From Chloroflexota bacterium (lineage in GTDB: Bacteria > Chloroflexota > UBA11872 > VXOZ01), in NCBI GenBank assembly GCA_958295775.1, contig CATQHC010000003.1:1-64000 (forward strand): a stretch of DNA of 64,000 nucleotides. Reading direction: 5' to 3'. The notes beneath the pieces are model-generated. The model made no database searches. It saw only the letters and a program-made list of their open reading frames with translations, and had not been told where the DNA came from. Position numbers and translations under genes: made by a program. The stretch's first letter is position 1; each line of letters begins with the position of its first letter. Shown here piece after piece: positions 23,502 through 40,668 of this stretch.

Positions 23502-23516
23502 TCAAGGAGTACACGA

Positions 23517-23828
23517 ATGGCTCTGCCCGCCATTCATCCGGGGGAACACCTTGCTGAGGAGTTGAAAGAGCTCGATATGAGCGCCACTACGCTGGCGCAA
23601 CAGCTAGGCGTGCCCACCAACCGCATCACCGGCATTCTCAACGGACAGCGCGCAGTCACCGGCGATACGGCGCTCAGACTAGCCCACTTCTTTGGCTCCA
23701 GCGCAGAGTTTTGGCTGAATCTCCAAAAGCTCTACGAACTGCGGCTGGCTGAGGAAAGAGTCGGCAACGCAATCAAGACGCTGCCGACACTCAAGAGCCG
23801 CCAGTCCGCGCGGCCAAGCAACACCTAG
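23517..23828 (+). CDS. higA: HigA-type antitoxin (XRE helix-turn-helix)
   Basis: The protein is 103 residues. HPGEHLAEELKELDMSATTLAQQLGVPTNRITGILNGQRAVTGDTALRLAHFFG is the HigA start and HTH; FWLNLQKLYELRLAEE follows. It should neutralise HigB and repress the operon. AAGGAG lies 8 nt upstream. Its stop overlaps by 3 nt with the stop of the converging phage-like gene. Confidence 0.92.
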   Translation: MALPAIHPGEHLAEELKELDMSATTLAQQLGVPTNRITGILNGQRAVTGDTALRLAHFFGSSAEFWLNLQKLYELRLAEERVGNAIKTLPTLKSRQSARPSNT

Positions 23829-24073
23829 TCATACACCGCCACCAGCACGGCGTCTTGCGGATTCTGCAAATCGTTGAAGACCACGAGGCAGCGTTGACCT
23901 ACCGCAATGGCCGTGGCATCCAGGCCGCGGTTCACGGCAATGCCGGTGAGAAACGTAGGAAATGAGCCCGAAAGCTGCACGTCCGACAGCCAGTTCGTGG
24001 GGTCGAATGCCCTGATCACGCCGTTCAAGGTGGTGCCCGGCGTGATGTCTCTCGTGTCTGCATTTTGTGGCAT
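23825..24073 (-). CDS. Small phage-module protein of unknown function
   Basis: The protein is 82 residues, starting at MPQNADTRDITPG with AAGGAAG upstream; the longer frame to 24319 lacks support. The composition is beta-rich with short turns (GTTLNGVIRAFD, VGQRCLVVFND, DAVLVAVYD), which suggests a small OB- or SH3-like barrel, but I do not recognise a family. It is the last gene of the minus-strand phage-like module and could be a tail-tip or baseplate accessory. Confidence 0.55.
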   Translation of the reverse strand: MPQNADTRDITPGTTLNGVIRAFDPTNWLSDVQLSGSFPTFLTGIAVNRGLDATAIAVGQRCLVVFNDLQNPQDAVLVAVYD

Positions 24074-24762
24074 AGAATTCTTCCTTTCTGCAAGGACCGG
24101 AGTGATTGTCTGTTGAGAATACTCAGCTACCGGTGTCGCTCTTGCTGGTAACGTTAGTCCCACGTGGGACCGTTTCAATATGCTGATGTGCTGCGCAACA
24201 GCGTAACAATAGGACTGCAGCGCACGATTCGTCGCGCTCACAGCGCGCGCTCCCAGTGCGCAAACTCTTTGAATTGCGGCGCCGTATCGTCTCAGTTCGC
24301 TGAATCGGGTGCGAGGCATGCTTTACGCCGGGATGACGGCACCAGAGCGCAGCGTGATGGCTTCTCCCTCGCGTGGGATGGGGTAGGGGCGGTTCGCGAA
24401 CCGCCCCTACCCCATGGACGGATTCATGCGTGCGCGGGAATGACTCTTGTCCGGACGCAGGTTACAAACCTGCGCTACCAGATGGAAACTGCGCCTTTGC
24501 CGAGGTCAGCGCTTCTGACGAAGTCAGGCTGCACCGGTCGTTCTCGTAAAATGAAAGGCCTTTTGCACCCAATTCCAATTTTCCGGGTTACCGCACAGAG
24601 GGATGCGGGGGACAAGCCCCCGCGCTACAGTCGCAATACAATTGCTCCTGAGAGAATCAACACTACCTTGCCCCGTGCAATCGCCTTCTCACCCTCACCC
24701 TAACCCTCTCCCCCAGGAGAGGGGATCTGCTCCGCTTTGATTCAGCTTAGGCGCTAGAATGT
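24074..24762. repeat. 690-nt repeat-filled gap inside the phage-like module
   Basis: No gene. Contents: a 38-nt perfect palindrome at 24378-24415 centred on TTCGCGAA with arms reading GGGGCGG; family 2 at 24456-24474; family 3 (GCGGGGGACAAGCCCCCGC) at 24605-24623; and a CCCTCACCCTAACCCTCTCC block near 24690-24723 that recurs inverted near 33367-33406. Confidence 0.75.
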
Positions 24763-26727
24763 CTAGTCAGCTTCTAGTACGCCGCACTGGAGCGTCATCG
24801 TGTAGTTCGCGTCGTGGGGCGTGAAGCGGTGGCTGAGCCTTACGATGCGCAGCCTGCCGTGGGCAAAGCCTGGGGTCTGAAAGTCGACCACGTCCCCGAC
24901 CTGGAGCGCCGGATTGTAGGGAACGTCCACCGTATACGCATTGCTTCCACGGCGGACGGCCGCCAGCACTGATTCCGCGCGGCTCCGGCAGTCCGCGGCC
25001 TGGGTCAGTTGAGTGTCGGTGACAAGCGTGGTGTGCTCGCTGCCGGACGTGCGCACCGCATCCCAGTCCCACGCTTCGCCGAGCACGCCTTTGCCCTGCA
25101 CCAGGACGTGATTGATCCGGTCGCGTTGCTGCCATGCGCCCGCAAATTCCTGGCCGTTGAACGTCCACGCCGCGGTGCCCGCGCGCGGGAAGTGGCAATG
25201 CACGGCGCCGTCCGGCTCCACCCGCCACCAGACGGCGTTGAGCGCGGCCAGCCGGTCCACCATGGCCTGCCAGGACTGGCCGGCATGGAGCGCGAAGGCG
25301 GGCAGAGCGCGGGCGAAACGGCTATCGCCGTCGTCGGTCATGCGCAGCGCCCCGGCGCGGTACCAGGCCTCCGCGAGCAACGCGCGCACGCTCCGATCAC
25401 TGTACGACCATGTCTGCAAGACGCGGCGGCGCGCCTGCCCGCTTGCGTCCACCGCCTCTAGACGTACCGTGCGGTCGGGCAGCAGCGTCACCGCTTGCAG
25501 GGTGAGGTCGGCCATCGGCGCCGTTTCCACGCCGCTGCTCGTTACGTATCCGGCGCGCACGCTGAGCGTAGTCCCCGCGCGCAGGGTTGTGCCCAGTGCG
25601 CCGGCGAGCGCATTGTCGGCATTGTCCAGCAGCAGGCGCGCCGTGCTCGTCTCGTTTGCCTGCTCTTCCCACTGAAAGTCCAGCACCCGTCCCGAGACAT
25701 CTTGAAACTGGTCCGGATTCGTCGCGGCATAGCCCCGGTAGCAATGCGCCGTTTCCTGGTTCACCAGCCAGTAGTGGCGTGCATCTTGCCGCAGCCACCA
25801 GAATCCGGCATAGGATTCATCTTCTACCGGCGTCGCCTCAGCGAAGGCGCCCCACGCATGCGCCGTACAGTAGCGCCAACGGCCGAAATTGAGGCCGGAT
25901 ACCACGCCGTGGTCGCGTTCCAGGTACGCAATGCGAAAGGCGTGCTCCCACCGCTCTACCGTGGGATTGAGCAAGTCGCGCCGCGCCGTGCTGTCATCCA
26001 CCCGCGCGATCGGCGTCAACGCTTCCCAGGCGGCGCCGTCCGTGCGGCAACTCACGATGGAGGCGCCGGTCGTGCCCGGCACGCCGCCCCACAGGGAGAG
26101 CGCCAGGTGCCAGGCAGTGCCGTCCCACGCGGCGCCGATGCCGCTGCATGCCGAGTACGTGCCGTGGGACCACTCGTCCGCCTGCCACGCCCCGTCGGCT
26201 TCATGGAGCCGGTACACGGTTACGCCGCCGCCTGACTTGTCCGCCGCCAAGAAGATACTGCCGTTACCGCCGTAGCAGAGGGCGCGCACAAACTGACGGG
26301 CGTTCCACAGAGTCTCGGGATTGCTCCAGGTGACGCCGCCGTCGGCGCTGGTGCGGCGAAAGACCGTGGTGAGTCTCACATAGACCACCATCACGTCGCC
26401 GTTCGGCAGCAGTCCCGCGCCCACCCCGGCAGCGCCGGTGACGCGGGACTGCAAGGTGGTCCAGGCGGTCCATTGGCTTGCCTGTTCCGGGTCCGTAATC
26501 CGCTGATACGCAACCGAGGCGGAGACCACCCCAATTTCCGGTGAAACGTCTACCCGCCAGAGCGCGCCGCTCGTGTCCACAAAGCAGGCGTTCGCGGCGG
26601 CAGGCCGCGCGTCGGACCGCACGCGTGTGTAGTGGTGCGCCGCATCGCGCAACGTAAACTGCATGGCCGGGCGGCGGGCCGGCGCGTCTACCGCCGCGGC
26701 TAGGGTATCGGTCAGCGTGCGTGCCAC
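24763..26727 (-). CDS. Large phage baseplate / tail-hub-like protein with Asp-box region
   Basis: The protein is 654 residues. Residues about 40-345 carry a beta-propeller-like region with an Asp-box motif SADGGVTWSNPETLWN and related turns (LPNGDVMVVYV, GGNGSIFLAAD), as in sialidase-type carbohydrate-binding tips. From about 350 the pattern changes to that of phage baseplate hub proteins: RVLDFQWEEQANETSTARLLLDN, VDASGQARRRVL, NAVWWRVEPDGAVHCHF and a final beta domain VGDVVDFQTPGFAHGRLRIVRLSHRF. It may recognise host surface glycans. It is the largest gene of the module. Confidence 0.65.
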   Translation of the reverse strand: MARTLTDTLAAAVDAPARRPAMQFTLRDAAHHYTRVRSDARPAAANACFVDTSGALWRVDVSPEIGVVSASVAYQRITDPEQASQWTAWTTLQSRVTGAAGVGAGLLPNGDVMVVYVRLTTVFRRTSADGGVTWSNPETLWNARQFVRALCYGGNGSIFLAADKSGGGVTVYRLHEADGAWQADEWSHGTYSACSGIGAAWDGTAWHLALSLWGGVPGTTGASIVSCRTDGAAWEALTPIARVDDSTARRDLLNPTVERWEHAFRIAYLERDHGVVSGLNFGRWRYCTAHAWGAFAEATPVEDESYAGFWWLRQDARHYWLVNQETAHCYRGYAATNPDQFQDVSGRVLDFQWEEQANETSTARLLLDNADNALAGALGTTLRAGTTLSVRAGYVTSSGVETAPMADLTLQAVTLLPDRTVRLEAVDASGQARRRVLQTWSYSDRSVRALLAEAWYRAGALRMTDDGDSRFARALPAFALHAGQSWQAMVDRLAALNAVWWRVEPDGAVHCHFPRAGTAAWTFNGQEFAGAWQQRDRINHVLVQGKGVLGEAWDWDAVRTSGSEHTTLVTDTQLTQAADCRSRAESVLAAVRRGSNAYTVDVPYNPALQVGDVVDFQTPGFAHGRLRIVRLSHRFTPHDANYTMTLQCGVLEAD

Positions 26728-26799
26728 TCTATCCAGACCTCCCGCAATACTGTTTTCTTATGTGTCGCAATGCCCACGTTGTCACGGACTCCCTTTTTT

Positions 26800-27237
26800 T
26801 TAGACTTCCCGCAACACTACGCGCGTTTCCCACTCCAACACCCACAGTTGCGCTTTGCCATACGGGATCACGCGGTCCTCACAGGCGGCGAAACGCACTT
26901 GGTAGCTATCTGCCAGTGGGTCCACGAACGTGTGGCTCTCATTCACACGCTGGTAGAAGGACCAGAGCCGGTCGTGCCATTGCCGCGCCTTGGCGGCGTT
27001 CGTCGTGCCGTCGAAATTGCGCACGTTACCACGGCACATGACCACAAACGAGAATTCGCGTTTCCCTAGTCCGGTTTCAACATAGGCGACCGTGCCGCCC
27101 GCCGTGGGACGCCCCTGCGCCCGGCGCGGTTGAGCCATGGTGTACGTACCGGGCTTGACGAAGAATCCCACCGGCCCGCCGTCGTTCACGTTCGCGTTGG
27201 TGAGCGTCACGTTGCAGTCCACTCCAATGGTTGCCAT
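26800..27237 (-). CDS. Putative phage tail protein, paralogue A
   Basis: The protein is 145 residues. It opens MATIGVDCNVTLTNAN and contains GGPVGFFVKPGTYTMAQPRR, REFSFVVMCRGNVRNFDGT, TFVDPLADSYQVRF and a final LEWETRVVLREV. The same blocks in the same order occur in the gene at 27629-28036, so the two are paralogues. Family not recognised with certainty; the neighbours and the pattern G-F-V-K-P-G-[ST]-Y plus D-P/T...Y/H-x-V suggest a tail structural role. Confidence 0.6.
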   Translation of the reverse strand: MATIGVDCNVTLTNANVNDGGPVGFFVKPGTYTMAQPRRAQGRPTAGGTVAYVETGLGKREFSFVVMCRGNVRNFDGTTNAAKARQWHDRLWSFYQRVNESHTFVDPLADSYQVRFAACEDRVIPYGKAQLWVLEWETRVVLREV

Positions 27238-27628
27238 GAATTGTGTTCCCCCTCTCTCGTTTCGGTTTTCTTGGAGATAATTTGTCTAGGCACTGTCGAA
27301 CACGCGTAAGCCCAGGTAACCCGGATCGAGCGACATCGAGAAAACCACGCTCAAGCCGTTCGTCCCCGTATCATGTCGATACGCTGTATCGTGTCGATAC
27401 GCTGTATCGAATACGGGGCAGGCTCTGAGGCACCCGCCCTGAGCTTGCCTGCACTGAGCTTGCCGAAGGGTCGCAGGATAGAAGGGCCGCAGACCGCTCC
27501 GTGGCTCGACTCTGTTGGCCTCGCTGCCCCGGCACAAGCAACTGCGGCGGGCAATTACCCAGCCCTGTCCGGCGCGCATTGACGGTCTCAGAGCAGTAGC
27601 GGCGGCGACTCCAGCGGACTTACGCGCT
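27238..27628. repeat. Family-B repeat between the two tail paralogues
   Basis: No gene in this 390-nt gap. GTATCATGTCGATACGCTG and GTATCGTGTCGATACGCTG stand in tandem (27367-27410), followed by TACGGGGCAGGCTCTGAG (about 27412-27430) and GAGCTTGCCGAAGGGTCG (about 27457-27475). Related copies lie in uvrA and at 38545-38600. Confidence 0.75.
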
Positions 27629-28036
27629 TCACGCCTCCACCAATGTGAGCGCAATCTCCCATTCCGGCTGTTCCCAGAATCCCACCGCTTCCGGCAGCCG
27701 TTCCTCCAGCGACCTTGCGTGGACTTGGTGTGCCGTGCCCTGCCGGTCGGTGAAGGGCAGCGCCTCGGCCTTGGCGTACGATGCCCGCAGGCGCTCACGG
27801 AAGACAGCGGCAGTGATGGGATTGACAGTGCCGTTGTAATTCAGGTGATTGGTGTAGGCAAGCACGGTGAAGTGCCAGACGTGTTTACCGGCCCCAAGAT
27901 CGACCGCGGCCGGCCCGGCGGCTGCAGCGGGATCTGCAGCCATGATCTTGGGAACCTCCACACGGTAGGAGCCGGGCTTTACGAAATAGCCGTGTCCATC
28001 CAGAATAATCGAGCAATCTTGGCCAACGATCGGCAT
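27629..28036 (-). CDS. Putative phage tail protein, paralogue B
   Basis: The protein is 135 residues: MPIVGQDCSIILDGHGYFVKPGSYRVEVPK, then HVWHFTVLAYTNHLNYNGTV, LPFTDRQGTAHQVHAR, ending PEWEIALTLVEA. It aligns by eye with the neighbouring 145-residue protein (VGQDC/IGVDC, GYFVKPGSY/GFFVKPGTY, NYNGT/NFDGT, EWEIALTLVEA/EWETRVVLREV). Spacing to the next upstream gene is only 6 nt, so they are likely co-transcribed. Confidence 0.6.
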   Translation of the reverse strand: MPIVGQDCSIILDGHGYFVKPGSYRVEVPKIMAADPAAAAGPAAVDLGAGKHVWHFTVLAYTNHLNYNGTVNPITAAVFRERLRASYAKAEALPFTDRQGTAHQVHARSLEERLPEAVGFWEQPEWEIALTLVEA

Positions 28037-28042
28037 GTCTGC

Positions 28043-28417
28043 TTACCTTATCTCTACGAGTTTGACGAGAGTGCGGTTCGGCGTGCCGGTCAACCCCAAA
28101 CGCAGGCGCTCCTGCACGCGGTACTTGCGGGCGCTCGCGACCTGGGTACGGTCCGGCGTGTCGGCAATCGCGACGACAGTGGCAACGTCCACCTCCGGCG
28201 CGAATTCCGCGGTGACGTCCGGACCCCGGTTGAGGCTGCGCGTGCGTTGACTAACCGCACCGGCGGCAGCGCAGTGCTCCTCCTTCCAGGTGCACTGCGC
28301 GTTGGCGTAATCGGTGGCGCCGCCGCGTTTGCGGATCAGCGTGACCGTGCGCAGCCGTCCCTGGCGAATGCGCTTGCGGTTTTCCAGGACATTGGCTGCC
28401 TGTTTGCTATCGAGCAT
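28043..28417 (-). CDS. Putative phage head-tail or tail completion protein
   Basis: The protein is 124 residues. It opens with a basic helix LDSKQAANVLENRKRIRQGRLRTVTLIRKRGG, has a middle ACTWKEE-like region (NAQCTWKEEHCAAAG) and a beta-rich C-terminus ending RTLVKLVEIR. Size, position between the connector and tail genes, and the beta-rich end suggest a stopper or neck protein, but I do not recognise the family. Confidence 0.5.
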   Translation of the reverse strand: MLDSKQAANVLENRKRIRQGRLRTVTLIRKRGGATDYANAQCTWKEEHCAAAGAVSQRTRSLNRGPDVTAEFAPEVDVATVVAIADTPDRTQVASARKYRVQERLRLGLTGTPNRTLVKLVEIR

Positions 28418-29376
28418 TGTCGTTCTCCGTTGTTTCTCTCTCGCGAGAGTCTGCCCTAACCAAGATTTTCCCTAACGCGGGCTCTCTCTTACAGGGGTTC
28501 TCTCTCATGGAAACTCTTACTTACGAGTCTTTTCTTCCATCACTCAGCGCCGGATGTAGGACCTTTCATGCTGAGCTTGTCGAAGCACGTGCAGCCATTC
28601 GCGCTGGGCCTGTAAGAGCACCTGTAACCGCTCACGCTAAGCCTGTCCAAGCACGAACGGTTACACCTGGACCAGGCGCAACGCACTCGGTCATTCCGGC
28701 GAACGCCGGATTCCAGGTCTTTGTCGCCACTCGCGCGCACACTCGAGGACGGGAGGCAAGCCCCCCGCTACGTCCTTGCACGTTCAATAGTCGGCTGTCC
28801 TTGCTATGCAAAAGGCGTGCTACTAAATCCGTCATCTGCATGTTGAAGAAAGCCTGCGAATGCGCGAATGTGAGCGGGTAACGCGAGGGGCGCGTCGTCC
28901 GTCATTCCCGCGAAAGCTCGCCTCCGCACGGGGCCGCAGAATCCATCTTCCCTTGGCAACGTGGGCCCCGCCCAGGAGCGGGGGACAAGCCCCCGCGCTA
29001 CATCATGAATACCCCGGACGAAGCGCAAGCCCCCGCGCTACACCGAGACTGTTCCAGACTTCTCCACTTCCTCGCCTTTCGGCTCTGCACTTGCGAGTAT
29101 TGGCTTCACCTCCTCCGCTGAGAAGGCACACACTCCCATCCGTCTTTCCCGCGAAAGCTCGCCCCCGCACGGGGGCGCAGAATCCATTTTTTCCTCACCA
29201 CCGGCGCAAACCCCCGAGGCGGGGGACAAGCCCCCGCGCTACATCATGAATGCCCTGGACGAAGCGCAAACCCCCGAGGCGGGGGACAAGCCCCCGCGCT
29301 ACATAATGAATGCCCCGGAGCGGGAGACCGCTACGTCTCAGTGAGACACGCGCAATCACGGCCGGGAGCGCCAGCC
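28418..29376. repeat. 960-nt repeat island with nested tandem duplications
   Basis: No gene. A composite unit (family 4-like GTCATTCCCGCGAAAGCTCG at 28901, followed by family 3 GGGGGACAAGCCCCCGCG near 28979) recurs about 240 nt later (29142 and 29220). Inside the second copy, a 60-nt block starting GCGCAAACCCCCGAGGC is directly repeated (29204 and 29264). Further family-4 (28695-28715), family-3 (28750-28775) and family-B (TGAGCTTGTCGAAGC, 28571-28585) pieces lie upstream. Confidence 0.8.
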
Positions 29377-30045
29377 TTAGCGCACGGTGTCGGCAGCGTC
29401 GACCGTCCACGCGACGCTACCCCGCGTCTGCTGCGCCCGTTCCTGACGCAAGACGTCAAGCTCCTTCGCAAACGTTTTCCGCGCCGCACTGCCCTTCTCC
29501 CACCAGGACCCACTCACCATGCTCGTATCCACGCCCGCCCCTTGCTGGCCGTCCTGATAGCGAAAGTTATCGGATTTTGGGGTCGCGTACGCCAGGCAGG
29601 CATGTGCGTACGCGCCGGTCGTCAGCAGACCGGTGTGCGCCGCCGGCACCGTCCACTGGTTTTCACCGGCGACGTGTTTCGTGCCCCAGCGCACGCGCAC
29701 CGGCTCGGCGGCGCTCGGGGCTTCCGGCACCAGGAGGAACACAAAACCCGGCGCGCCGTCGCCGGTCGGCAGCACCATGAACGTGCAGAGTTGCGGCGGA
29801 TAGCCGCCGGTGGGCCACTCCACCTCCGCCACACTCCACACATCCGTGAGACCGCTCAGGTCTACCAGGCGCGAGTCCGCACTCGTGGTCAGAGTGGCGT
29901 CACGGGTCCAGGGCGCAGCCCGCGACAATTCGGTGAGGGCACGCTCGATGGCGTGGTCGAGGTCTGCGTCGCTGAAGCGCGCCTCGGCGTCCGCTGGGTC
30001 GAATAGCTCGCTGCGCAACGAGCTGCGAAATTTGCTCAATGTCAT
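29377..30045 (-). CDS. Putative phage head-tail connector protein
   Basis: The protein is 222 residues. The ATG at 30045 has GAGGA 8 nt upstream; a TTG two codons earlier is the alternative. It begins MTLSKFRSSLRSELFDPADAEARFSDADLDHAIERALTELSR, a helical start typical of connector/adaptor proteins that count phage-neck subunits. Then come beta-rich segments (VEWPTGGYPPQLCTFMVL, EPVRVRWGTKHV) and a helix ARKTFAKELDVLRQERAQQ. It lies just downstream of the capsid gene in transcription order, as connectors do. Confidence 0.6.
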   Translation of the reverse strand: MTLSKFRSSLRSELFDPADAEARFSDADLDHAIERALTELSRAAPWTRDATLTTSADSRLVDLSGLTDVWSVAEVEWPTGGYPPQLCTFMVLPTGDGAPGFVFLLVPEAPSAAEPVRVRWGTKHVAGENQWTVPAAHTGLLTTGAYAHACLAYATPKSDNFRYQDGQQGAGVDTSMVSGSWWEKGSAARKTFAKELDVLRQERAQQTRGSVAWTVDAADTVR

Positions 30046-30200
30046 TGGCAATCCTCATGTGACAACTACAACTGTGATGCTCGGCACAACGAAGCTCGAC
30101 GTTCAGGCGGCGCCAACCGCCGCGGGCAGTGGACGCCGCTTTGCAACCTGCGCGACCGGCGGCGGGAGGGTGCTGACACTCTTCACCGCAACCAGCGCGG

Positions 30201-30230
30201 CGCAGGGGCACGACATGTCGTGCCCCTGCG
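30201..30230. repeat. Family-1 palindrome, 30 nt perfect
   Basis: A perfect inverted repeat, CGCAGGGGCACGACA and its complement, between the connector and capsid genes (gap 30046-30288, no gene). Confidence 0.8.
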
Positions 30231-30288
30231 TGCGCGCCACCGGGCGATAGCGGTGGTGAATCAATCACACAATCGCCCCGTGGCGGCC

Positions 30289-32289
30289 CTACGCCACTTC
30301 CGCCCAGTAAGCGCCCCGGTAGTCCAGCCAGCCGCCGCCGAATTCCCAGCGCACCTTGTAGCTGATGGCGTCGTTGGTGAATACCGAACCGGCGGTCGGA
30401 TTATCCTGCACCAGCAGTTCCGGCGTCTCCTGACCGTTGATGAAGCCCACCTCCAGGCACTCGATCTGGGTCGGATCAGCCATCAGGTAGTAGTCCTTGG
30501 CGTCGCTGAACTGCGGTACCACCAGCGGTTCCAGCATGCCCTGCAGCGGGTTGGCATCGTTATTCTGGCTGCCGGGCAACAGCGTGCTATTGAGGATGGT
30601 GACAGCCGTCCAGTAAAGATCGGGCGGCAGCAGGAGGTAGCGGGGCTTGATGCCCAGGGGCTTGCCCGCGCTATTGGTCTGCTTCATCATCTGCGTAATC
30701 GCGGCTTGGAGCGCGGTTGCCGCCAGCGCGGCGGTACCGCGATTCTTGTGCGACGTCTGGGTGCCGTCATCGAAAACCTTCGTGCTGTCGGCAAGCTGCG
30801 GATTGCCGGTGAGGAGGCCGTACACGAACTCGTTGATGGTCGTGGCCGCCGCAATCGCGAGCTTGGTGGGAATGCGCCGGATGGCTTCCAGGTCGTCGTT
30901 CAGGATCGCCTCGCGGGTGACCACCACCAGGTTGCCGCGCTTGGCGGGTGTGTACGTCTCCCGCGTGTCGTCCCACGCCAGGTTGGTGTACGCGGCATTC
31001 TCGTTGACCGTGCCGAGGGCGGCAAAGTCATGCAACAGCACGCGGTACTGGGGTTTGTAATCGCGGATGGAGCGGATCACGCAGAATTTCTTCCAGTCCT
31101 GCGGCTGCGCGCCATAGTCCTGGACGAGCCGCTTGCTGATGGCGTTCGCGAGGGCGTGATTGAGCACGCTCGTCGTCACCTCGTTGGCCTCCCGCACGAG
31201 CGAGAGCTCCGGATTCAGGGCTCCTCGCACTTCAGCGTCGCCCGTGATCTGCACGTAGGCTTCCCGGATGCTGGACCAGGCGGGCACCGGTTCAGCGGAG
31301 CCAACGTCACGCACGCCCAGCAGGCGCGCCAGACCGGCTTCAACGGCGGCCAAGCCCCGGCTCGCGCCCGCGCCGCCAACGTTCAGGCGGGTCTTCTCTG
31401 CGCCGGCGCCACGCACGGCGGGGGCAGAACCCGTCAGTGCGCGCACGGTCTCGACTTCGTCCTGGACGGCCTGCTCCAGCACCGCAGTGGCAAAGGTCTG
31501 ACCCTCAAAGCGGCGGCGCAGCTTGCGCTTGATGGCCGCGGGCAGGGCCGCCGTGTCGAGCCGCTCGTGCAGTGCGGTCATGCAGGCGAGCTTGGCCTCC
31601 GCTTCGGCAAGGCGGGCATCGGTCGTTGCTGCGGTAGTCTCTCCCATGAGTACCTCCTCGGTATGGGTTGAATGAGCCGGATCTGCCCCGGCCTGGGACT
31701 CGTCAATTGCTGCGTTGAGACGTACTTCTCCATCTCCTTGCATTGCGTTCTCCTTTGCTGTATCGACTATGTCTCGTGCTGCCAAGAGACGCTCGAATGC
31801 GCCGCCGGCCGCGGCCCGCGTGACCACGTCACAGGACCGCAGTACCGGGATGCGTTCCACCATCTGCACGCGCTTGCCGTTCTGCTGCTGGGTGCGCACC
31901 GACGCGAGCGAGTCAATCGAGAGACCCAACACGTCGGGGCGTCCCATCTCCACGGCTTCCTGTACCAGGCTCCAGAGCCACTCGGCGCTGGCAAAGATGT
32001 GCAGGGTTGCCCGCACCCGGTCGCCCTCTACCTGCGGCTCGCGAAAGAAGCCCACCACGTCGCGCACGCTCCGCGGCTTGTGGATGCTGCCGGTCGCAGA
32101 GGCAGGGTGGTCGGCAAAGGCCTTCAGGCCGTCGAGTTGTGCCGCGACGTCCTGCAGCGCCTGCGGCGTGAAGTAGCGGCCATTGCGCGACATGCCTTGC
32201 CGCAGCACCGTAACGGCCACGTCGCGTTGCGGCCCGGCAAGCTGCGCTTCCCGTAGCGGCGCGAGCAGCGCGAGGTCTTCTTCTTTCAT
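30289..32289 (-). CDS. Prohead protease - scaffold - major capsid protein in one ORF
   Basis: The ORF is 666 codons, starting at MKEEDLALLAPL with AAAGGAT upstream. Residues 1-180 look like a prohead maturation protease: RQGMSRNGRYFTPQAL, FADHPASATGS, RDVVGFFREPQVEGDRVRA, LGLSIDSLASV. Residues about 240-310 are helical (ARLAEAEAKLACMTALHERLD), like a scaffold or delta domain. Residues 350-666 are a Mu-gpT/HK97-like capsid: ITGDAEVRGALNPELSLVREANEVTTSVLNHAL, NLVVVTREAILNDDLEAIRRIP, ADPTQIECLEVGFINGQETPELLVQD. Two in-frame internal starts (codons 183 and 215) have strong ribosome-binding sites, so shorter capsid or scaffold forms are probably made as well. It supplies the shell and its maturation enzyme. 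Confidence 0.8.
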   Translation of the reverse strand: MKEEDLALLAPLREAQLAGPQRDVAVTVLRQGMSRNGRYFTPQALQDVAAQLDGLKAFADHPASATGSIHKPRSVRDVVGFFREPQVEGDRVRATLHIFASAEWLWSLVQEAVEMGRPDVLGLSIDSLASVRTQQQNGKRVQMVERIPVLRSCDVVTRAAAGGAFERLLAARDIVDTAKENAMQGDGEVRLNAAIDESQAGADPAHSTHTEEVLMGETTAATTDARLAEAEAKLACMTALHERLDTAALPAAIKRKLRRRFEGQTFATAVLEQAVQDEVETVRALTGSAPAVRGAGAEKTRLNVGGAGASRGLAAVEAGLARLLGVRDVGSAEPVPAWSSIREAYVQITGDAEVRGALNPELSLVREANEVTTSVLNHALANAISKRLVQDYGAQPQDWKKFCVIRSIRDYKPQYRVLLHDFAALGTVNENAAYTNLAWDDTRETYTPAKRGNLVVVTREAILNDDLEAIRRIPTKLAIAAATTINEFVYGLLTGNPQLADSTKVFDDGTQTSHKNRGTAALAATALQAAITQMMKQTNSAGKPLGIKPRYLLLPPDLYWTAVTILNSTLLPGSQNNDANPLQGMLEPLVVPQFSDAKDYYLMADPTQIECLEVGFINGQETPELLVQDNPTAGSVFTNDAISYKVRWEFGGGWLDYRGAYWAEVA
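31645..31659 (-). promoter_or_regulatory. Internal ribosome-binding site and ATG, start of the capsid form
   Basis: On the minus strand GAGGAGGTA (31651-31659) lies 3-5 nt before ATG 31645-31647, in frame at codon 215. The product would begin MGETTAATTDARLAEAEAK. Confidence 0.6.
31741..31756 (-). promoter_or_regulatory. Internal ribosome-binding site and ATG, second internal start
   Basis: On the minus strand AAAGGAG (31750-31756) lies 6 nt before ATG 31741-31743, in frame at codon 183. The product would begin MQGDGEVRLNAAIDESQ. Confidence 0.5.
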
Positions 32290-32348
32290 TGATTTATCCT
32301 TTCTCTGGTGTCGTTCGTGTTCTTTCTTCGTACGGTCTTGACCGGTAG

Positions 32349-32420
32349 CGCAGGTTTGCAACCTGCGTATTCCCGCCCGCGACGGCTCTCATTCTCGCTG
32401 CGCGGGGGCTTGTCCACCGC
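32349..32420. repeat. Family-2 and family-3 palindromes before the capsid operon segment
   Basis: CGCAGGTTTGCAACCTGCG at 32349-32367, then an imperfect family-3 copy (GCGGGGGCTTGTCCACCGC, about 32402-32420). Nothing else is seen in 32290-32610 except a partial family-4 copy near 32515. Confidence 0.7.
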
Positions 32421-32610
32421 ATGGGATAGGACCAGGCGCGACCGTTCCCTCACATAGTTCGCCTTGACTCGCGTGCGAGGGTGAGGGCGGGAAACCACGC
32501 GCCCAGCCCCTCTGAGACTCCCGCTTTCGCGGTAACAGCGATGAACGTATTGGGTCCGGCAACCGCCGTGCAATGCGGCCAGCAAGCGGCCAACTGGTAC
32601 AATAGCGACC

Positions 32611-33192
32611 ATGAACCAACACAGACCTCCCGCCCCAGTTGCAGCCCTCACCGTTGTCGTTGCCCCTTCCCAAGCCGGTGGCTATTGGGGAGACCTGCCG
32701 ACGCTGCCCGGCTGCGTTGTGCAGGGAGAGAGCGTTGACGCGGTGCTGGCCGATCTCACCATGGCGGCGGAGATGTTCCTGACACAAGAAGCGCCGCCCG
32801 CCGACACCGTCGCGCTGCACGCAGTCACCGTAGACGTAGGCGACGTGACGTACCGCTTGCCGGCCGTATCCTGGCAAGGCGAGCGGCGGCACCATGCCGT
32901 GGCGCTGCCGCTCCACGACCGTGTCGCGCGCGCAGAGACTGCGGCGGACGCGCTGACGCAACTCCGCAACCTGCTCCCCGCGTGGATTGCCGCCGATCTC
33001 GCCGAGGGCGAGACTGTGCCGGCGGTGGCGGTGGCGGACACGGCGACCATCAACCCGCGCACTGCCGGCGCCACCGGCGCGCCCCTCTCCCAATCCGAGG
33101 CGCTCAAGCCCGAAGTCGTCCTGGTATTGCTGCGCGCGGCAGGCATGACCAAAGAGCAACTGAGCGAGATGCTGGACTACGACCCCGAGTGA
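32611..33192 (+). CDS. HicB-like protein, opposite in strand to the phage genes
   Basis: The protein is 193 residues. Residues about 22-58 (GGYWGDLPTLPGCVVQGESVDAVLADLTMAAEMFL) are the HicB antitoxin fold: strand, P-x-L-P-G-C, then helix. A second, more divergent strand-helix region spans about 75-130, and the end has a helical KPEVVLVLLRAAGMTKEQLSEML. No HicA gene is beside it. It sits between the capsid and portal genes but is read the other way, with repeats on both sides. It may be an orphan antitoxin or a regulator. Confidence 0.6.
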   Translation: MNQHRPPAPVAALTVVVAPSQAGGYWGDLPTLPGCVVQGESVDAVLADLTMAAEMFLTQEAPPADTVALHAVTVDVGDVTYRLPAVSWQGERRHHAVALPLHDRVARAETAADALTQLRNLLPAWIAADLAEGETVPAVAVADTATINPRTAGATGAPLSQSEALKPEVVLVLLRAAGMTKEQLSEMLDYDPE

Positions 33193-33664
33193 CTGGGTCC
33201 GGTATCGTTGCGCTCGGCAAGACTGCGACCGGCGTCGCCGTGCTCGACAGGACTGCACCTTGCACGAGTGCCAACTGCGCCAATCCCAGTCCGATTCCTC
33301 CATGCAAGAGACCCTTGCTCTGCCCCCGCTACATTTAGACTGTCGCGCTTGCAATCCTCGCCTCAAGACCCCCTCTCCCTTGAGGGAGAGGGCCGGGGTG
33401 AGGGTGAATCTTCTCATTCGGTCTTGCCCCTTTTGGCTTGTCCGCAGCACATTTAGGTGTCCCTGTGGTCCGTAATTCCCGCTTGCGCGGGAATCCATCT
33501 TCTCTGCGTGCACACTGAACACCGGACCCGTACGCGATATGGCGCGGGTGTTCATCGGCCCAGCCCCCGTGGACTCCCGGTTGCGCGGGAGCGACATATT
33601 GGGACCCAATTCAAGAGACCCAAGACTCGGCAGATTACACGGGGCAGTCCAGTGCCGCACTCCT
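33193..33664. repeat. Repeat-filled gap between the HicB-like and portal genes
   Basis: No gene. It holds the inverted CCCTCTCCCTTGAGGGAGAGG block (33369-33389 region, followed by GGGGTGAGGGTG), a family-4 copy ATTCCCGCTTGCGCGGGAAT (33475-33494) and a second GACTCCCGGTTGCGCGGGAG (about 33572-33591). Confidence 0.75.
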
Positions 33665-34903
33665 TTACTCCTCTTCAGCTAAGAAACGGCGGAAGAGACG
33701 CGCGGCATCTTCCGTTTCCAGCCAGCCCTCGGCGCGGGCGAGCTGCAAGGACCGCGCAAACGACTCGGCATGCGGCCCCGCCACGTGGGCGACGTCCGGC
33801 TGCAGTTCCTGAAAGACCACGCGAAAGGCCGTATCGACATTCGCCGCCAGCGCGCCGGCATCCTGCTTGGCCTCGATTGCACGCGCCACGAGACGGCGCA
33901 GATAGCGGCCAAAGAGTTCCTGGCGGCGTTGGAAGCGCCGCAGCGTCGGCAGACCCATCTCAGCCGCGGTCGCCCGGTTGACGTGTCCGCCTTCCGCCAG
34001 GTAATGCTCCGGCAGGCCCGCGCCGGCCGCGATCATCAGCTTGAGGGCGCGGCCGTCCGCGGCCACGTCATCAGCGCCGATTGAAGGTTGCACCGGCTGC
34101 CATGTCTCGGCCTCGTTATGGAAGACGACCGTGCCGGGCGCCGGCGGTTGCGCATAGGCCGCCATCTTGGCAAGCAGGTCGTTCCGCGTTGCGCCCCGTA
34201 CGGTCACGTCGTAGATGAAGCTGCCCTTCAGGCGGTTGATGCGGGCGCGGTCCACGAGCCAATCGCGATAGCGTTTGAGCCACGGCAGCAAAGCGGCCAG
34301 GTCGCTGCGGCCCCGCAATGCGTTCGACACGCGGTTGACGGTGAAGTGCTCCAACTCCGCCGCGGCTACCCAGTAGCCCGGCTCCTGGCCGACACCGCGC
34401 ACGCGATAGCGGAGCACCTGCTCGACGTCTTCGGCCGCAGTCTCAATCCGGTCGATGAGCAGCGGATCGAGCTGGCGCAGGCGGATCTCGCCGGTGAGCG
34501 GATCGGTGAAGACCCGCACGAACTGCTCGCCGTAAAGGGCAAGCTCGGTGTAGAGACTATAGATGCGCGTGTCCATGCTGTTGTCGGAGTGCCGCCAGAA
34601 CGCATCCACCACGTCCTGCACCGCCGGGCTCGCGCACGCGATGCGCACGCCGCCGCCCAGCACGAAGTTGGCCTGCACGTCGATCACGGCGTAGGCCAAG
34701 GGGTTGGTGACGTAGGCTTCGTAGACCTCGCGCAGCAACCGCTGGTGGTCCCAGAGCGGATCGTCCCGTGTCTCCGCTTTTCCCGAGACCTGCCGGTAGC
34801 CGCCATCCTCAGCCGCGACCGCCTCCTGCACGCGGGCCTGGATCACGTCGCCAAAGAGACGCTCACCCAAGCGCTGCCACCAGTGTGTTGTCTGTATTGC
34901 CAT
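33665..34903 (-). CDS. Phage portal protein
   Basis: The protein is 412 residues. Typical portal features: an N-terminal region with LREVYEAYVTNPLAYAVIDVQANFVLGGGVRI, the wing/stem LYTELALYGEQFVRVFTDPLTGEIRLRQLDP, then a clip/stem region GTVVFHNEAETW and a long crown helix. Portals form a 12-subunit ring at one capsid vertex through which DNA enters. It lies between terminase and protease-capsid, the standard order. Confidence 0.85.
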   Translation of the reverse strand: MAIQTTHWWQRLGERLFGDVIQARVQEAVAAEDGGYRQVSGKAETRDDPLWDHQRLLREVYEAYVTNPLAYAVIDVQANFVLGGGVRIACASPAVQDVVDAFWRHSDNSMDTRIYSLYTELALYGEQFVRVFTDPLTGEIRLRQLDPLLIDRIETAAEDVEQVLRYRVRGVGQEPGYWVAAAELEHFTVNRVSNALRGRSDLAALLPWLKRYRDWLVDRARINRLKGSFIYDVTVRGATRNDLLAKMAAYAQPPAPGTVVFHNEAETWQPVQPSIGADDVAADGRALKLMIAAGAGLPEHYLAEGGHVNRATAAEMGLPTLRRFQRRQELFGRYLRRLVARAIEAKQDAGALAANVDTAFRVVFQELQPDVAHVAGPHAESFARSLQLARAEGWLETEDAARLFRRFLAEEE

Positions 34904-35270
34904 GCTGCTCGCTTTCTATTGTTCATTGCGATTCGGGCCTTCCGGCCCGTCATTCCCCCGAAAGCGGGAGACCTTCCCTCACTTGCGTTCCGTGCCCCAT
35001 CAAGAGCGGGGGACAAGCCCCCGCGCTACGGCAAGAGAATTGCGCCTCTTATTCGTAATTCCCATGAAAGTAGACCGCCAACCTCCGTCATTCCCGCTTT
35101 TGCGGGAATCCATCTTCTCTTTGTCAACAGCAATTCCCCCTGTTGGGAGGCATCCTTCCGTTACGCATTCTCGACCTTCCTTCCCCCTGGACTCTGGCTT
35201 CCGCCGGAGTGACGGCCAAGACTCGTGTGCCCGTCGCGGCTCATAATGCGTAACTGGGGCAAGGGCTCAA
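34904..35270. repeat. Repeat-filled gap between portal and terminase
   Basis: No gene. Family 4 at about 34952-34972 and 35087-35110 (GTCATTCCCGCTTTTGCGGG), family 3 at about 35007-35030 (GCGGGGGACAAGCCCCCGCG), and an imperfect family-4 variant at about 35190-35216. Confidence 0.75.
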
Positions 35271-36821
35271 TCAATACCCTTCCGATTGCCTCTCTTGCGG
35301 CGGGAGCGCGACCGATACGGCAGGCGGCGCGCCGCCCTCAACCGCGCGCGCCAGCAGAGCCAGGGCCGACACGTAGTCGTCATGTCCCCGGCCGGCGGGC
35401 ACGTGAAACGAAATCCGGTTGCCCGGATGCAGCGCCAGTTGACACCGCCGCACCTGTTGCCGGCATTCCCGGTACTCCGGCGACCCATCGTCTGCCCACA
35501 GTTGCAGGCGTCCGCCGGAGACCAAGCTCCGCAGGTCATAGCCGAGCGCGCTCTTCGATTGCGCCGTGAACGTAAACGGCTCGATGCGGTCGTCGCCCAG
35601 GCGCGCCCTCAAGAAACGGGCCAGAGCGTCACCCAGGCCGGTGGCGTCAACTATTGCCCGCTGCACGCGCCACTCCTCGCCCAACAGGCGCACCAGGCGG
35701 GCGTACTGCTCAGTGGTGGGCAGGCCGGTCCATTGGTAGGCATTCACCACTGCAACGGCAGGTAGCGCGAACCCCAGCACCGGGTCGTGCCGCCAGACCC
35801 GTTCGCCGATCAAGACCACGGTGCTATCCCGCCGTGATTGGGCGCTCCGCCGGTCTGCGGCAGTTTCTTCCCCGGCCACGTCCACCGCCGCAACGTAGTG
35901 CGCCTCAGCCTGCGGCTGGTGCTGCCGCGTGTGTGTACCCTGCAGGGCGGCTTGCAACGGCGGCGTGAAGAAGCCGGTGGCGTCGTCCACCTCTTCCAGG
36001 CAGTACTGGGTGCGGATAACCAGGTCCTCCGCCCCACGCTGGCGCATCTGCGCCCGCACCGCGGCGCCGTAGCGCGGGTTGGCCCGCGCGCCCACCTCCC
36101 AGGGAAACGAGAAGTGCCGCCGCTCGCCGGTTTTTTCCTCATGCGCGAGGTTGAGCGCCTTGTACTTTGCGAGGAGCGTGTCTTTCGTCCACGGCGTACC
36201 GTAGAGCACGATGGTGGCGTTCTGGGCCGCCGCCATGGGCAGGAAGTCCTTGGCAAACTTCTCCTCGTCCACGTCCTGGGCTTCGTCCACTTCCAGCAGC
36301 AGGTCGGCGGTCGCGCCGACGACATTGGACTGCTCGTGCGCCGAAAGGAACACTACCCGCGCCTTGCCGACCGTGACCGCGTTGCCGTGGGCGCGTTTCC
36401 AGTAGGGCGCCAGCCAGGGACGGTCCAGCACCGCTTCCAGGCGCAGGCGCGAGATGAGAGTCTGCGGCGTGAGGGTGGGCGCGCACTTCACAATCGTGCC
36501 GCCGCGCCGTTGGCAGCGGTAGAGCAGATAGGCTTCGAGATGCGCCGAAAGCTCGTTCTTGCCCATCTGCCGCGCCATTTCGACGGTGAAGACCGCTCCC
36601 CGGCGACGCCGCACGCTTGCCAGCACGGCTCGCGCTACCGCCAACTGGTACGAACGCAGCGGCCGCCCCACGAGCACGCGGGAAAAGTGCGCAATATCGT
36701 TAAAGGTATAGCGAAAGAAGGCGCGGGCCAGCGCATCCGTATCGTCATCGTGAAACGTCGACGACGGACGCGCGGCGGCATTCGCGTGCTGTTTGGACTT
36801 GTCGGCGGTAGTCATTTGCAT
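35271..36821 (-). CDS. Phage terminase large subunit
   Basis: The protein is 516 residues. The ATPase domain has the Walker A variant ARQMGKNE (residues 83-90) and Walker B LLLEVDEAQDVD (about 174-185), with a YGTPW coupling motif. The nuclease domain is RNase H-like, with acidic residues in VAAVDVAGEE, AIVDATGLGDALARFL and GRGHDDYVSALALL. It cuts and pumps phage DNA into the prohead. All key residues seem present, so the protein could still work. Confidence 0.9.
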   Translation of the reverse strand: MQMTTADKSKQHANAAARPSSTFHDDDTDALARAFFRYTFNDIAHFSRVLVGRPLRSYQLAVARAVLASVRRRRGAVFTVEMARQMGKNELSAHLEAYLLYRCQRRGGTIVKCAPTLTPQTLISRLRLEAVLDRPWLAPYWKRAHGNAVTVGKARVVFLSAHEQSNVVGATADLLLEVDEAQDVDEEKFAKDFLPMAAAQNATIVLYGTPWTKDTLLAKYKALNLAHEEKTGERRHFSFPWEVGARANPRYGAAVRAQMRQRGAEDLVIRTQYCLEEVDDATGFFTPPLQAALQGTHTRQHQPQAEAHYVAAVDVAGEETAADRRSAQSRRDSTVVLIGERVWRHDPVLGFALPAVAVVNAYQWTGLPTTEQYARLVRLLGEEWRVQRAIVDATGLGDALARFLRARLGDDRIEPFTFTAQSKSALGYDLRSLVSGGRLQLWADDGSPEYRECRQQVRRCQLALHPGNRISFHVPAGRGHDDYVSALALLARAVEGGAPPAVSVALPPQERQSEGY

Positions 36822-36921
36822 GAAGAATCTTCTCTATCTGTCAGGCGGCGCGGCGCACGCGCCCCGGCGGGACGCCGGCACAACCGCCCGCGCCCGTTGG
36901 ACGCATGCCGGATATGCACGC

Positions 36922-37164
36922 TCACTGCCCCGGTACCATGTGCAGGATGCTGTTGAGGAACGCGGCGGCAAACGGCGACGCAAAGATGCCGATCAGAATG
37001 ACGTTGATCTTCGCTTCCAACCGCGCGTAGTCCTCGCGCGTGTTCTCCGCCAACTCGCGGGTCACCTGGCCGAAGGCGCAGCCGTATTGCGCCAGGTGGT
37101 CTGCCAGCTCCCGGTGGCGCTTGTCCTGTGTGGTTGGCGCACGTGTGCTCGTCTCATTCAGCAT
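36922..37164 (-). CDS. Small membrane protein of the phage module
   Basis: The protein is 80 residues. It has a hydrophilic helical start (KRHRELADHLAQYGCAFGQVTRELAENTREDYARLEAK) and one C-terminal membrane helix INVILIGIFASPFAAAFLNSIL. Its start overlaps the end of the next upstream gene by 11 nt. It could be a holin-like or membrane-anchoring protein; one helix is too little evidence to call lysis. Confidence 0.55.
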   Translation of the reverse strand: MLNETSTRAPTTQDKRHRELADHLAQYGCAFGQVTRELAENTREDYARLEAKINVILIGIFASPFAAAFLNSILHMVPGQ

Positions 37165-37519
37165 GGTTTGCTTCCCGTGTTCGCTCTTCCTGTTGTTCGC
37201 GCGTTTCGATCTCGGCGATCACCTGGCGCATGGCCTCGGTCAGGTTGTCTTCGGCCCGGGGCGAGAGTTGGGCGCGGGCTTTCAAGGCGTTGAGGAGAAT
37301 ATCCGTCAGTTCCTTGACCGCCTTGATCTTGTCGGACGGTGCGCGTTCGTCTTCTTCCGCGTTGAGCAGTTGGGCGGCGATGCGGCGAATGAGCATGCGC
37401 AACAGTCCGATCTCATCCTGGAGCAGCGGATTGTCGGCGGTGCGCGCCAATGCCGCCAGTTCATGCTCGGCGAAGAGGTCGGCGTAGAGACTCTTGGGTT
37501 GCTTCTTGTCTTGGGTCAC
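37154..37519 (-). CDS. Helical phage-module protein (possible small terminase subunit)
   Basis: The protein is 121 residues, nearly all helical and charged: LQDEIGLLRMLIRRIAAQLLNAEEDERAPSDKIKAVKELTDILLNALKARAQL, then TEAMRQVIAEIETREQQEERTRE. It is the first gene of the minus-strand module, two genes before the large terminase, where small terminase subunits usually lie. No helix-turn-helix is certain. Role inferred from position only. Confidence 0.5.
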   Translation of the reverse strand: MTQDKKQPKSLYADLFAEHELAALARTADNPLLQDEIGLLRMLIRRIAAQLLNAEEDERAPSDKIKAVKELTDILLNALKARAQLSPRAEDNLTEAMRQVIAEIETREQQEERTREANHAE

Positions 37520-37719
37520 CTGGGTATATTCCTTTGCGTGGTGGCTGTGTGCTTCTCAATTGAAGAAACAGTGTTCTGTTTCCCGCTCCCTGCGGCTTTC
37601 CAGCCGGCGCGTCGCAGGGTGGAGCGTTGCGAGCGCGCCACAGGCACGGCCTTTGCCAAGCGTTGCAGGGAGCGTGTCGCTGGTGCTGTGCGGCGCTCGC
37701 CCATGATTTTGGGGCGTGC

Positions 37720-37800
37720 TTTAAGTTATATTCAAAAATAATGTAAAAAATAAGGGGTAAAAGGGGTTGTAATTTTACTATATCTTTACTATACTGGGAA
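37720..37800. promoter_or_regulatory. AT-rich divergent promoter and direct-repeat operator region
   Basis: Plus strand: TTGTAA (37767-37772), 17 nt, TATACT (37790-37795), leading to the LexA-like gene. Within it TTTACTATA occurs twice in direct repeat, 11 nt apart (37775 and 37786). Minus strand: TATAAC (37725-37730) could be the -10 of the structural genes. The segment is strikingly AT-rich against its GC-rich surroundings. The repressor probably binds here. Confidence 0.5.
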
Positions 37801-37855
37801 AAACGCGGTGCAGGATGCCGCTGAGCAGCATCTCGTGATGGAGAGGAGAGTGCAC

Positions 37856-38479
37856 ATGAAAGAAACGCTTATGGATAAGCCACTTACCGGCAAGCAACGG
37901 CAGGTGCTGACGTTTCTCACGCGCGTACAGCAAGAGGGACGCTGGCCCACCTTGGAAGAGATTGCCCGCTGCATCGGCGCGCGTTCACCCGCGGCGGCGC
38001 ACCACCATCTGAAGCGCTTGGAGACCAAGGGCTACCTGCGCCGCACGGCCTGGGGCAGCTACGAACTCACGCCCCAGGTACAACTGCTGGAGGGTCTGGG
38101 GGTTGCGCGTGTACCAATCCGCGGCACGATTGCCGCCGGTACCGGCGTGGAAGCGGTGGAGGCAGTGGAAGACTGGCTCACCGTGGATAGCGTCTTTGCG
38201 CGTCACCCCGACGTCTACGCGCTGCGCGTGCAGGGCGACAGCATGGTGGATGCCTGCGTCTGCGACGGCGACCATGTGCTCATTCGCCCCCAGCCCGCCG
38301 CGGAGAACGGCGAGATGGTGGCGGCCCTGCGCGAAGACGGCACCGCCACGCTGAAGCACCTCCAGCATGAGCGTGGGAAAGTATTCCTCGTGCCCGCCAA
38401 CCCGTATTACCCCACGCTTCCCGGCGACAACATCACCATTCTCGGCAAGGTGATCGGCGTGATCCGCGTATTCGCATGA
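37856..38479 (+). CDS. LexA-like self-cleaving repressor
   Basis: The protein is 207 residues; ATG with GAGAGGAGAG upstream. Residues 10-75 are a LexA-type winged helix (TGKQRQVLTFLTRVQQ, TLEEIARCIGARSPAAAHHHLKRLETKGYLRR). The C-terminal S24 peptidase part has the Ala94-Gly95 cleavage site in TIAAGTG, catalytic Ser129 in GDSMVDA and Lys167 in TATLKHL. It would repress until RecA-stimulated self-cleavage after DNA damage. It diverges from the phage-like operon and so probably controls it, alone or along with SOS genes. Confidence 0.85.
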   Translation: MKETLMDKPLTGKQRQVLTFLTRVQQEGRWPTLEEIARCIGARSPAAAHHHLKRLETKGYLRRTAWGSYELTPQVQLLEGLGVARVPIRGTIAAGTGVEAVEAVEDWLTVDSVFARHPDVYALRVQGDSMVDACVCDGDHVLIRPQPAAENGEMVAALREDGTATLKHLQHERGKVFLVPANPYYPTLPGDNITILGKVIGVIRVFA

Positions 38480-39945: not shown

Positions 39946-40668
39946 ATGCTTAATGCATCAAGTCAGCGGACACAGACCAAGAAACGTGCTCGGATTGTGC
40001 AAAACGGTTTGCCGACCAACGAGCTAATTCTAAGTGCACATGTGGGGGGAAACGAGAGTGTATTCCCTCAGATACTGTCTCTTTATGTCCCGAATGCAAG
40101 CGTGATTGCAGACGTAACGTACGGTGAAGGCGTATTTTGGCGCAACATTCCTGAAAACCAATACAGAGTTCTCGGAACTGACATCCAGACTGGAGTCGAT
40201 TGTCGCGACTTGCCCTATGAAAATGGTGAGATTGATTGCGTGGTTCTCGATCCGCCTTATATGCATTCTCCAGGCGGCACCGCCCATCAAAGCCAAAGTG
40301 CTTTCGAAGAGTACTATCGGAACAACGAAACAGGCAACAACACAACGAGAAAATACCATGAAGCAGTATTGGAACTGTATGCGGATGCGGGCGTAGAGGC
40401 CCATAGAGTGCTTCGAGATCGCGGAGTCTTCATCGTCAAATGCCAGGACGAGGTGTGCTCCAATCGTCAACGCTTCACCCATGTAGAAGTCATGGAGTCG
40501 TACAGCAAATTGGGCTTTATCCCAGAAGACCTATTTGTCGTAGTTAGAAACAACCGCCCTGGCGTAAGTCGCACTGTGAGGCAGGTCCACGCAAGGAAGA
40601 ATCATTCCTACTTCCTCGTATTTTGGAAGAAAGGAGCCTCCCGGCGCACTTGGAATCCACCAGAATGA
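39946..40668 (+). CDS. DNA methyltransferase (N4/N6-type, DPPY motif)
   Basis: The protein is 240 residues. SAM-binding motif I is VIADVTYGEGVFW; the acidic motif II region is VLGTDIQTG; motif IV is VVLDPPYMHS; then LYADAGVEAHRVLRDRGVFIVKCQDE and a LGFIPEDLFVVVRN. Motif I comes before DPPY. It methylates adenine N6 or cytosine N4 in a short target. The next gene overlaps it by 4 nt (ATGA), which points to a coupled restriction partner. Codon use is AT-richer than the neighbours, a sign of recent transfer. Confidence 0.85.
   Translation: MLNASSQRTQTKKRARIVQNGLPTNELILSAHVGGNESVFPQILSLYVPNASVIADVTYGEGVFWRNIPENQYRVLGTDIQTGVDCRDLPYENGEIDCVVLDPPYMHSPGGTAHQSQSAFEEYYRNNETGNNTTRKYHEAVLELYADAGVEAHRVLRDRGVFIVKCQDEVCSNRQRFTHVEVMESYSKLGFIPEDLFVVVRNNRPGVSRTVRQVHARKNHSYFLVFWKKGASRRTWNPPE

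Follow-up and report, generated by a model that had tools for sequence, protein, structure and literature searches.

Few gene transfer agents (GTAs) have experimental support, and most of these are found in alphaproteobacteria (PMC9662315, PMC12946183). A GTA is defined by six features: (i) proteins derived from caudoviricetes, (ii) packing of mostly random host DNA, (iii) full endogenisation, often over several loci, (iv) an element that cannot be packaged in full, as the head is too small, (v) mostly vertical inheritance, with co-diversification with the host, and (vi) delivery of the DNA to other cells (PMC9662315). RcGTA and its relatives (Rhodogtaviriformidae, alphaproteobacteria) are vertically inherited, co-diversify with their hosts, occupy scattered loci and are subject to host-linked regulation (PMC9662315). 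BhGTA/VSH-1 of Brachyspira is induced by DNA damage (PMC9662315), and FpGTA of Faecalibacterium is a candidate GTA, reported to be podovirus-like, with two operons that in one strain are separated by about 125 kb (PMC12946183). No report of a GTA in Chloroflexota was found in the literature searched, which did not cover most subscription papers and preprints.

We analysed a stretch of 64,000 nt of Chloroflexota DNA (the window) and compared it with related genomes and viral sequences. Our main conclusion, to which we assign a probability of roughly 0.7, is that a phage-like gene cluster within it represents the principal locus of a domesticated, GTA-like phage (viriform) of Chloroflexota; that it packages and delivers random host DNA is inferred. 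This reading rests on the presence of phage genes for packaging, head and tail and the absence of mobility genes, on purifying selection and co-diversification with the host, on the occurrence of one locus per genome in nearly all carriers, and on genes that co-occur even when they are unlinked. The original prediction had arrived at the same interpretation, and the presence of the cluster in congeners, together with selection and co-diversification, leaves it the best available, with random packaging of host DNA still an inference.

Three of the six defining features are met. The proteins are of caudoviricete origin (capsid, portal, large terminase subunit TerL and adaptor by profile, tube by fold), endogenisation over several loci appears complete (the window lacks mobility genes and attachment repeats, and TerL is often unlinked from the capsid), and inheritance is vertical (the trees of the capsid and other proteins are congruent with that of RpoB, and flanks are shared by congeners). 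The remaining three features need particles, and for this reason we use the term “GTA-like” and not GTA. The features of a temperate prophage (integrase and attachment sites) are not met; nor are those of a tailocin or contractile injection system (tail genes in the absence of capsid, portal and terminase), since all three of these genes are present and under selection.

The cluster resembles RcGTA in its vertical inheritance, host co-diversification, distribution of genes over several loci and, by inference, host-linked regulation, and its tube protein aligns with an RcGTA neck protein (6toa, Z 8.6). It differs in having a fused protease-capsid gene, in the lack of a detected tape measure and in the phylum of its host; moreover, no RcGTA capsid or terminase is found among its sequence matches to solved structures. 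Induction by damage, which the lexA neighbour of the cluster would suggest, is a point of likeness to BhGTA/VSH-1, although the latter is a spirochete element. FpGTA is also a candidate GTA from outside the alphaproteobacteria and has split loci, but it belongs to Firmicutes and is supported by packaged DNA reads.

Profile searches and open reading frames (ORFs) placed the cluster on the minus strand, from position 37519 down to 23825. Its genes are given below in minus-strand order, from candidate terS to the 82-aa gene, and are followed by the features to the right.

37154..37519, minus strand: candidate small terminase subunit (terS), 121 aa, named by position only
36922..37164, minus strand: 80-aa ORF of unknown function, overlapping the 121-aa candidate small terminase gene
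35271..36821, minus strand: TerL, terminase large subunit (phrog_5909 and Terminase_6C; dN/dS 0.13)
33665..34903, minus strand: portal protein (phrog_10963, E 1.7e-38; dN/dS 0.07)
32611..33192, plus strand: UPF0150/HicB-like gene between portal and capsid (PF21748, E 2.7e-6)
30289..32289, minus strand: fused prohead protease and major capsid protein (PF25209, E 1.5e-44; NF045541, E 3.5e-73)
29377..30045, minus strand: head-tail adaptor, SU10 type (PF24175, E 8e-4, under the curated cut-off)
28043..28417, minus strand: neck-like protein, named by position (dN/dS 0.29)
27629..28036, minus strand: tail-tube-fold protein, copy 1, a paralog of copy 2 (30-35% identity)
26800..27237, minus strand: tail-tube-fold protein, copy 2 (AlphaFold model, pLDDT 78.7)
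24763..26727, minus strand: hub-like tail-tip protein, 654 aa (weak phrog_196, phrog_1887 and phrog_177 matches)
23825..24073, minus strand: conserved 82-aa protein, the last gene of the cluster, kept in the genus and the phylum
37520..37873: divergent regulatory region, in which a block of about 80 nt hardly varies among five species, with a sigma70-type promoter directed toward lexA
37808..38479, plus strand: lexA (TIGR00498, 158 bits), the only copy found by a search of the genome
38920..39498, plus strand: Sigma-70/ECF-type sigma factor (TIGR02937, above the cut-off)
39946..40668, plus strand: N6/N4 DNA methylase (PF01555, E 4.5e-8), conserved in the genus (dN/dS 0.08)
40665..41168, plus strand: 167-aa ORF of unknown function, overlapping the methylase gene

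The terminase, portal, capsid, connector- and tail-type genes that had been predicted are supported by profile matches for portal, TerL, capsid and adaptor, and weakly for the hub. Two details required amendment: the structural genes do lie on the minus strand, but the gene at 32611-33192 is a plus-strand gene inside the cluster, and the protease and capsid functions, both present, reside in one fused gene. The conserved unit is also larger than the interval 23825-37519, as it reaches right to about 41168 and includes lexA, the sigma factor, the methylase and the 167-aa ORF.

The 121-aa candidate small terminase, for which a profile search gave no family match, has counterparts with 83-84% identity in four congeners (dN/dS 0.17) and a weak homolog in the same place in genome G058. 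The 80-aa ORF is kept across the genus, and its homologs in G058 and G113 immediately precede TerL. The UPF0150/HicB-like gene retains its position between portal and capsid in the genus, the adaptor is conserved phylum-wide, and the neck-like protein is kept in the genus, with homologs that adjoin the portal or the capsid in other families. The two tube paralogs are 135-145 aa in length. A Foldseek search with the tube-fold model gave a list filled with tail and baseplate tube proteins, including relatives from injection systems (VIA Z about 10). The hub model (pLDDT 37) was too poor for a fold search; a homolog of the hub in G322 matches phrog_1887 with E 1.4e-5.

A HigB-like toxin and an HTH antitoxin (23217-23828) directly adjoin the left end of the cluster. 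The methylase and the 167-aa ORF (39946-41168) lie where the GC content is low (0.49 at 40-41 kb) and are conserved with the cluster in the genus. The ORF has no Pfam match, and a homolog adjoins the methylase in G001 and G002; the two genes are possibly a restriction-modification pair.

The original prediction noted the absence of integrase, tape measure and endolysin from the cluster, and none was found. Profile searches revealed no integrase among the cluster genes, the two flanks have no exact direct repeat of at least 12 nt in common, and no tRNA gene is present within the window. The search for a tape measure, limited to one family (PF10145), gave no match anywhere in the genome. We do not take the lack of a tape measure to indicate domestication, as had been argued, because L229, a temperate viral relative from IMG/VR that bears an integrase, likewise has no gene of tape-measure size in the interval from TerL to hub, within the available 17.8 kb stretch; this absence is thus probably ancestral. 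No endolysin or holin was found in the window, and an endolysin homolog and a holin-like gene are present in the cluster of G113, with homologs of both in G058. In another genome, G102, a serine recombinase lies at the edge of the cluster (L082:15332-17368), where synteny with four genus mates ends. It was absent from the other loci searched and thus represents a local insertion.

The palindromic repeats reported from the gaps of the cluster are real: 9.4% of the non-coding bases of the cluster belong to 14-mers occurring at least three times in the window, in comparison with 0.9-1.5% in other gaps, and the same repeats are scattered across genomes of the genus. They had been considered old. 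However, the equivalent gaps are mostly shorter in congeners (391 nt between the tube genes in the window genome versus 54-56 nt in three congeners; 72 nt versus 2 nt between tube and hub, also in three congeners), which identifies the repeats as late insertions, and we do not accept them as proving a great age. They do show the operon behaving as ordinary chromosome, but give no duration.

The comparison of related genomes that had been proposed as a check revealed conserved synteny in congeners. Exactly one copy of the capsid gene is present in all six genomes of the genus (80-84% identity to the window copy), and the gene order is kept in G002, G003 and, across three contigs, in G004. A common aldolase/UbiD block adjoins the cluster in G001, in G002 (inverted) and in G003, and a CTP-synthase block does so in G003 and G004. 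These flanks are common to four congeners, and the window genome differs at that point. In G001 the end of the cluster is inverted and, close to a contig end, the hub, adaptor, neck and one tube gene are missing. All reading frames are otherwise intact in the genus, except for a frameshifted adaptor gene in G004.

Mean dN/dS values (Nei-Gojobori) ranged from 0.07 to 0.29 for all 12 cluster genes and from 0.06 to 0.17 for seven host controls; dN was similar in the two sets and dS was somewhat lower in the cluster. With frames intact at a mean pairwise dS of about 0.3-0.9, and dN/dS well below 1 in every gene, sequence comparison indicates that the cluster is maintained by purifying selection. 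None of the findings named beforehand as fatal to the prediction was encountered: the capsid is not absent from close relatives (6/6), there are no attachment repeats, and neither terminase nor capsid is decaying in the genus.

Trees of capsid and RpoB from 42 genomes had 31 of 39 splits in common (label shuffles averaged 0.14 and reached at most 3), and only two of the 30 well-supported capsid splits conflicted with well-supported RpoB splits. The Mantel correlation was 0.91 overall, 0.81 within one family (f21) and 0.81 within the genus (five genomes, p 0.04). The trees of TerL, portal, adaptor, hub, the 82-aa protein and tube also agreed with RpoB, with a few conflicts. Some f21 genomes carry two rpoB genes, and we infer that this may account for part of the conflicts. 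Judged from these trees, the cluster is vertically inherited and has co-diversified with its host across the phylum.

A capsid profile search was positive in 60 of 400 genomes of the phylum, nearly always at a single locus. Capsid-positive genomes constitute 23 of the 29 in f21, and the capsid was absent from two families of the window genome's own class. Elsewhere in the phylum, the neighbourhood of the capsid contains the same gene families in changed order, on both strands and among other genes. TerL was present in 45 of 47 capsid-positive genomes tested (the two exceptions are incomplete, 69% and 86%) and in none of four capsid-negative ones; G253 has two copies. On the same contig TerL lies approximately 380-680 kb from the capsid in G102, G172, G086, G345 and G357, and more than 1 Mb away in the single-contig genome G196, while in G371 and G016 the two genes are on different contigs. 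Genes that co-occur in this way, and yet are unlinked, are not those of a prophage; they resemble parts of a particle owned by the host. The catalytic motifs of TerL, predicted to be intact, are invariant: the Walker B and nuclease aspartates are identical in 43/43 genomic TerLs, and Walker A in all 41 that cover it.

In G016 and G020 portal and capsid alone remain together among other genes (L026:12642-16306 and L028:13648-17405, respectively), with TerL on another contig. The capsid gene of G328, a member of f21, is broken by several stops (G328:C1:5686176-5688137), and is intact in its genus mates G061, G286 and G322; a loss under way is possible. In G351 and G144, also outside the genus of the window genome, the capsid gene is broken near its end.

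The isolated phages related to the cluster are distant. Microcystis phage Mae-JY22, with capsid and portal 31% and 30% identical to those of the cluster, differs in having 61 annotated genes, including a tape-measure-like one. A scan of IMG/VR with a single sequence gave no match, but alignment-based scans did yield related contigs, with TerLs 41-47% identical. Among these, L229 shares a related TerL (about 43%) and homologs of adaptor and hub with the cluster, and differs from it by an integrase, an excisionase-like protein and an unrelated HK97-type capsid, which mark it as a genuine temperate phage. True phages thus have homologs of the TerL, adaptor and hub of the cluster. Other IMG/VR contigs (L190-L202) carry the same set of capsid, portal and adaptor, with up to 57-64% identity in the best segment; we infer that they may be bacterial GTA-like chromosomal loci filed as viral.

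In an unrooted TerL tree 70 viral sequences formed one clade (support 0.999), with all 43 genomic TerLs and 12 IMG/VR contigs on the other side. This split fits a single origin. How many domestications took place is unsettled, however, because the tree is unrooted and because the trees of capsid and portal place viral contigs within the genomic set. The proposal that one domestication took place in the ancestor of most Chloroflexota, that the GTA has been carried since while its genes scattered, and that in the genus, where it lies beside the sole lexA, it may be under direct SOS control, is tentative, and we place it a little short of even odds.

The region between terS and lexA contains, in the five-species alignment, the nearly invariant block and a good promoter that faces lexA. 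No LexA box of the GAAC-N4-GTTC type was noticed by eye in this block. The LexA of the genus shares only 35-41% identity with its counterparts in other families of the class, and five genomes have it as their sole copy. No linkage of lexA to the cluster was seen outside the genus in the loci examined, and the idea that LexA generally accompanies the cluster is therefore unsupported. In G058, in which no lexA was seen, a homolog (44%) of the sigma factor holds the equivalent divergent position. Regulation by the adjacent LexA and/or the sigma factor is inferred from position.

According to the GTA-like reading, the operon would be switched on in some cells, plausibly in response to DNA damage through the adjacent LexA, through the linked sigma factor, or both. 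The fused capsid protein would be processed into heads, which TerL would fill with chromosomal DNA, as inferred from the conserved TerL and portal. The tube and hub proteins may form a short tail, whose function in delivery is inferred from the tube fold and the hub-like protein. Lysis would depend on an endolysin/holin pair, linked in some relatives and not seen in the window, and the particles would then deliver host DNA to kin.

Several points count against this scheme: data on particles, packaging or transfer are lacking, the window revealed neither a tape measure nor a lysis gene, four genes are missing near a contig end in G001 and the adaptor is frameshifted in G004, capsids are broken in some genomes outside the genus (G328, G351 and G144), phages have homologs of TerL, adaptor and hub, and lexA is unlinked outside the genus in the loci examined. 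A domesticated particle might instead be kept for a role other than transfer (protein delivery, a DNA-filled decoy or a compartment). The evidence for domestication and selection would be identical, and the lack of a lysis gene in the window suits this explanation, yet the invariant motor and nuclease residues of TerL and a portal dN/dS among the lowest point to DNA packaging, and endolysin and holin lie within the clusters of relatives; we consider it unlikely. Slow decay of a defective prophage by drift could account for the missing mobility genes, the loss in G001, the frameshift in G004 and the broken capsids of a few other genomes, but hardly for frames intact at dS of about 0.3-0.9, dN/dS well below 1 and retention across the phylum. 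We consider this explanation extremely unlikely, and reject a decayed remnant on account of the intact frames and the selection.

It is very unlikely that the cluster is a prophage, active or satellite, in the form of a compact temperate element still on the move. An integrase-bearing viral relative (L229) does exist and the flanks differ between some congeners, but the cluster has neither an integrase nor a flanking repeat of at least 12 nt, its trees follow the host, its genes are unlinked in many genomes and four congeners have common flanks. We reject a recent prophage on account of the shared flanks, the unlinked genes and the host-congruent trees. The resemblance of the tube-fold proteins to baseplate and tube proteins of contractile injection systems might suggest such a system or a tailocin; the cluster has conserved capsid, portal and TerL genes and no recognised sheath gene, which leaves next to no chance of this.

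To conclude, the GTA-like element is found both in lineages of uncultured bacteria known from metagenome-assembled genomes and in families with complete genomes. If our interpretation is true, it would be a phylum-wide element of apparently separate origin, indicating that domestication of this kind can be both deep and lasting. It would provide another old system for asking why hosts retain such particles, and would represent a route of gene flow of a kind for which the literature searched holds no prior report in the phylum.
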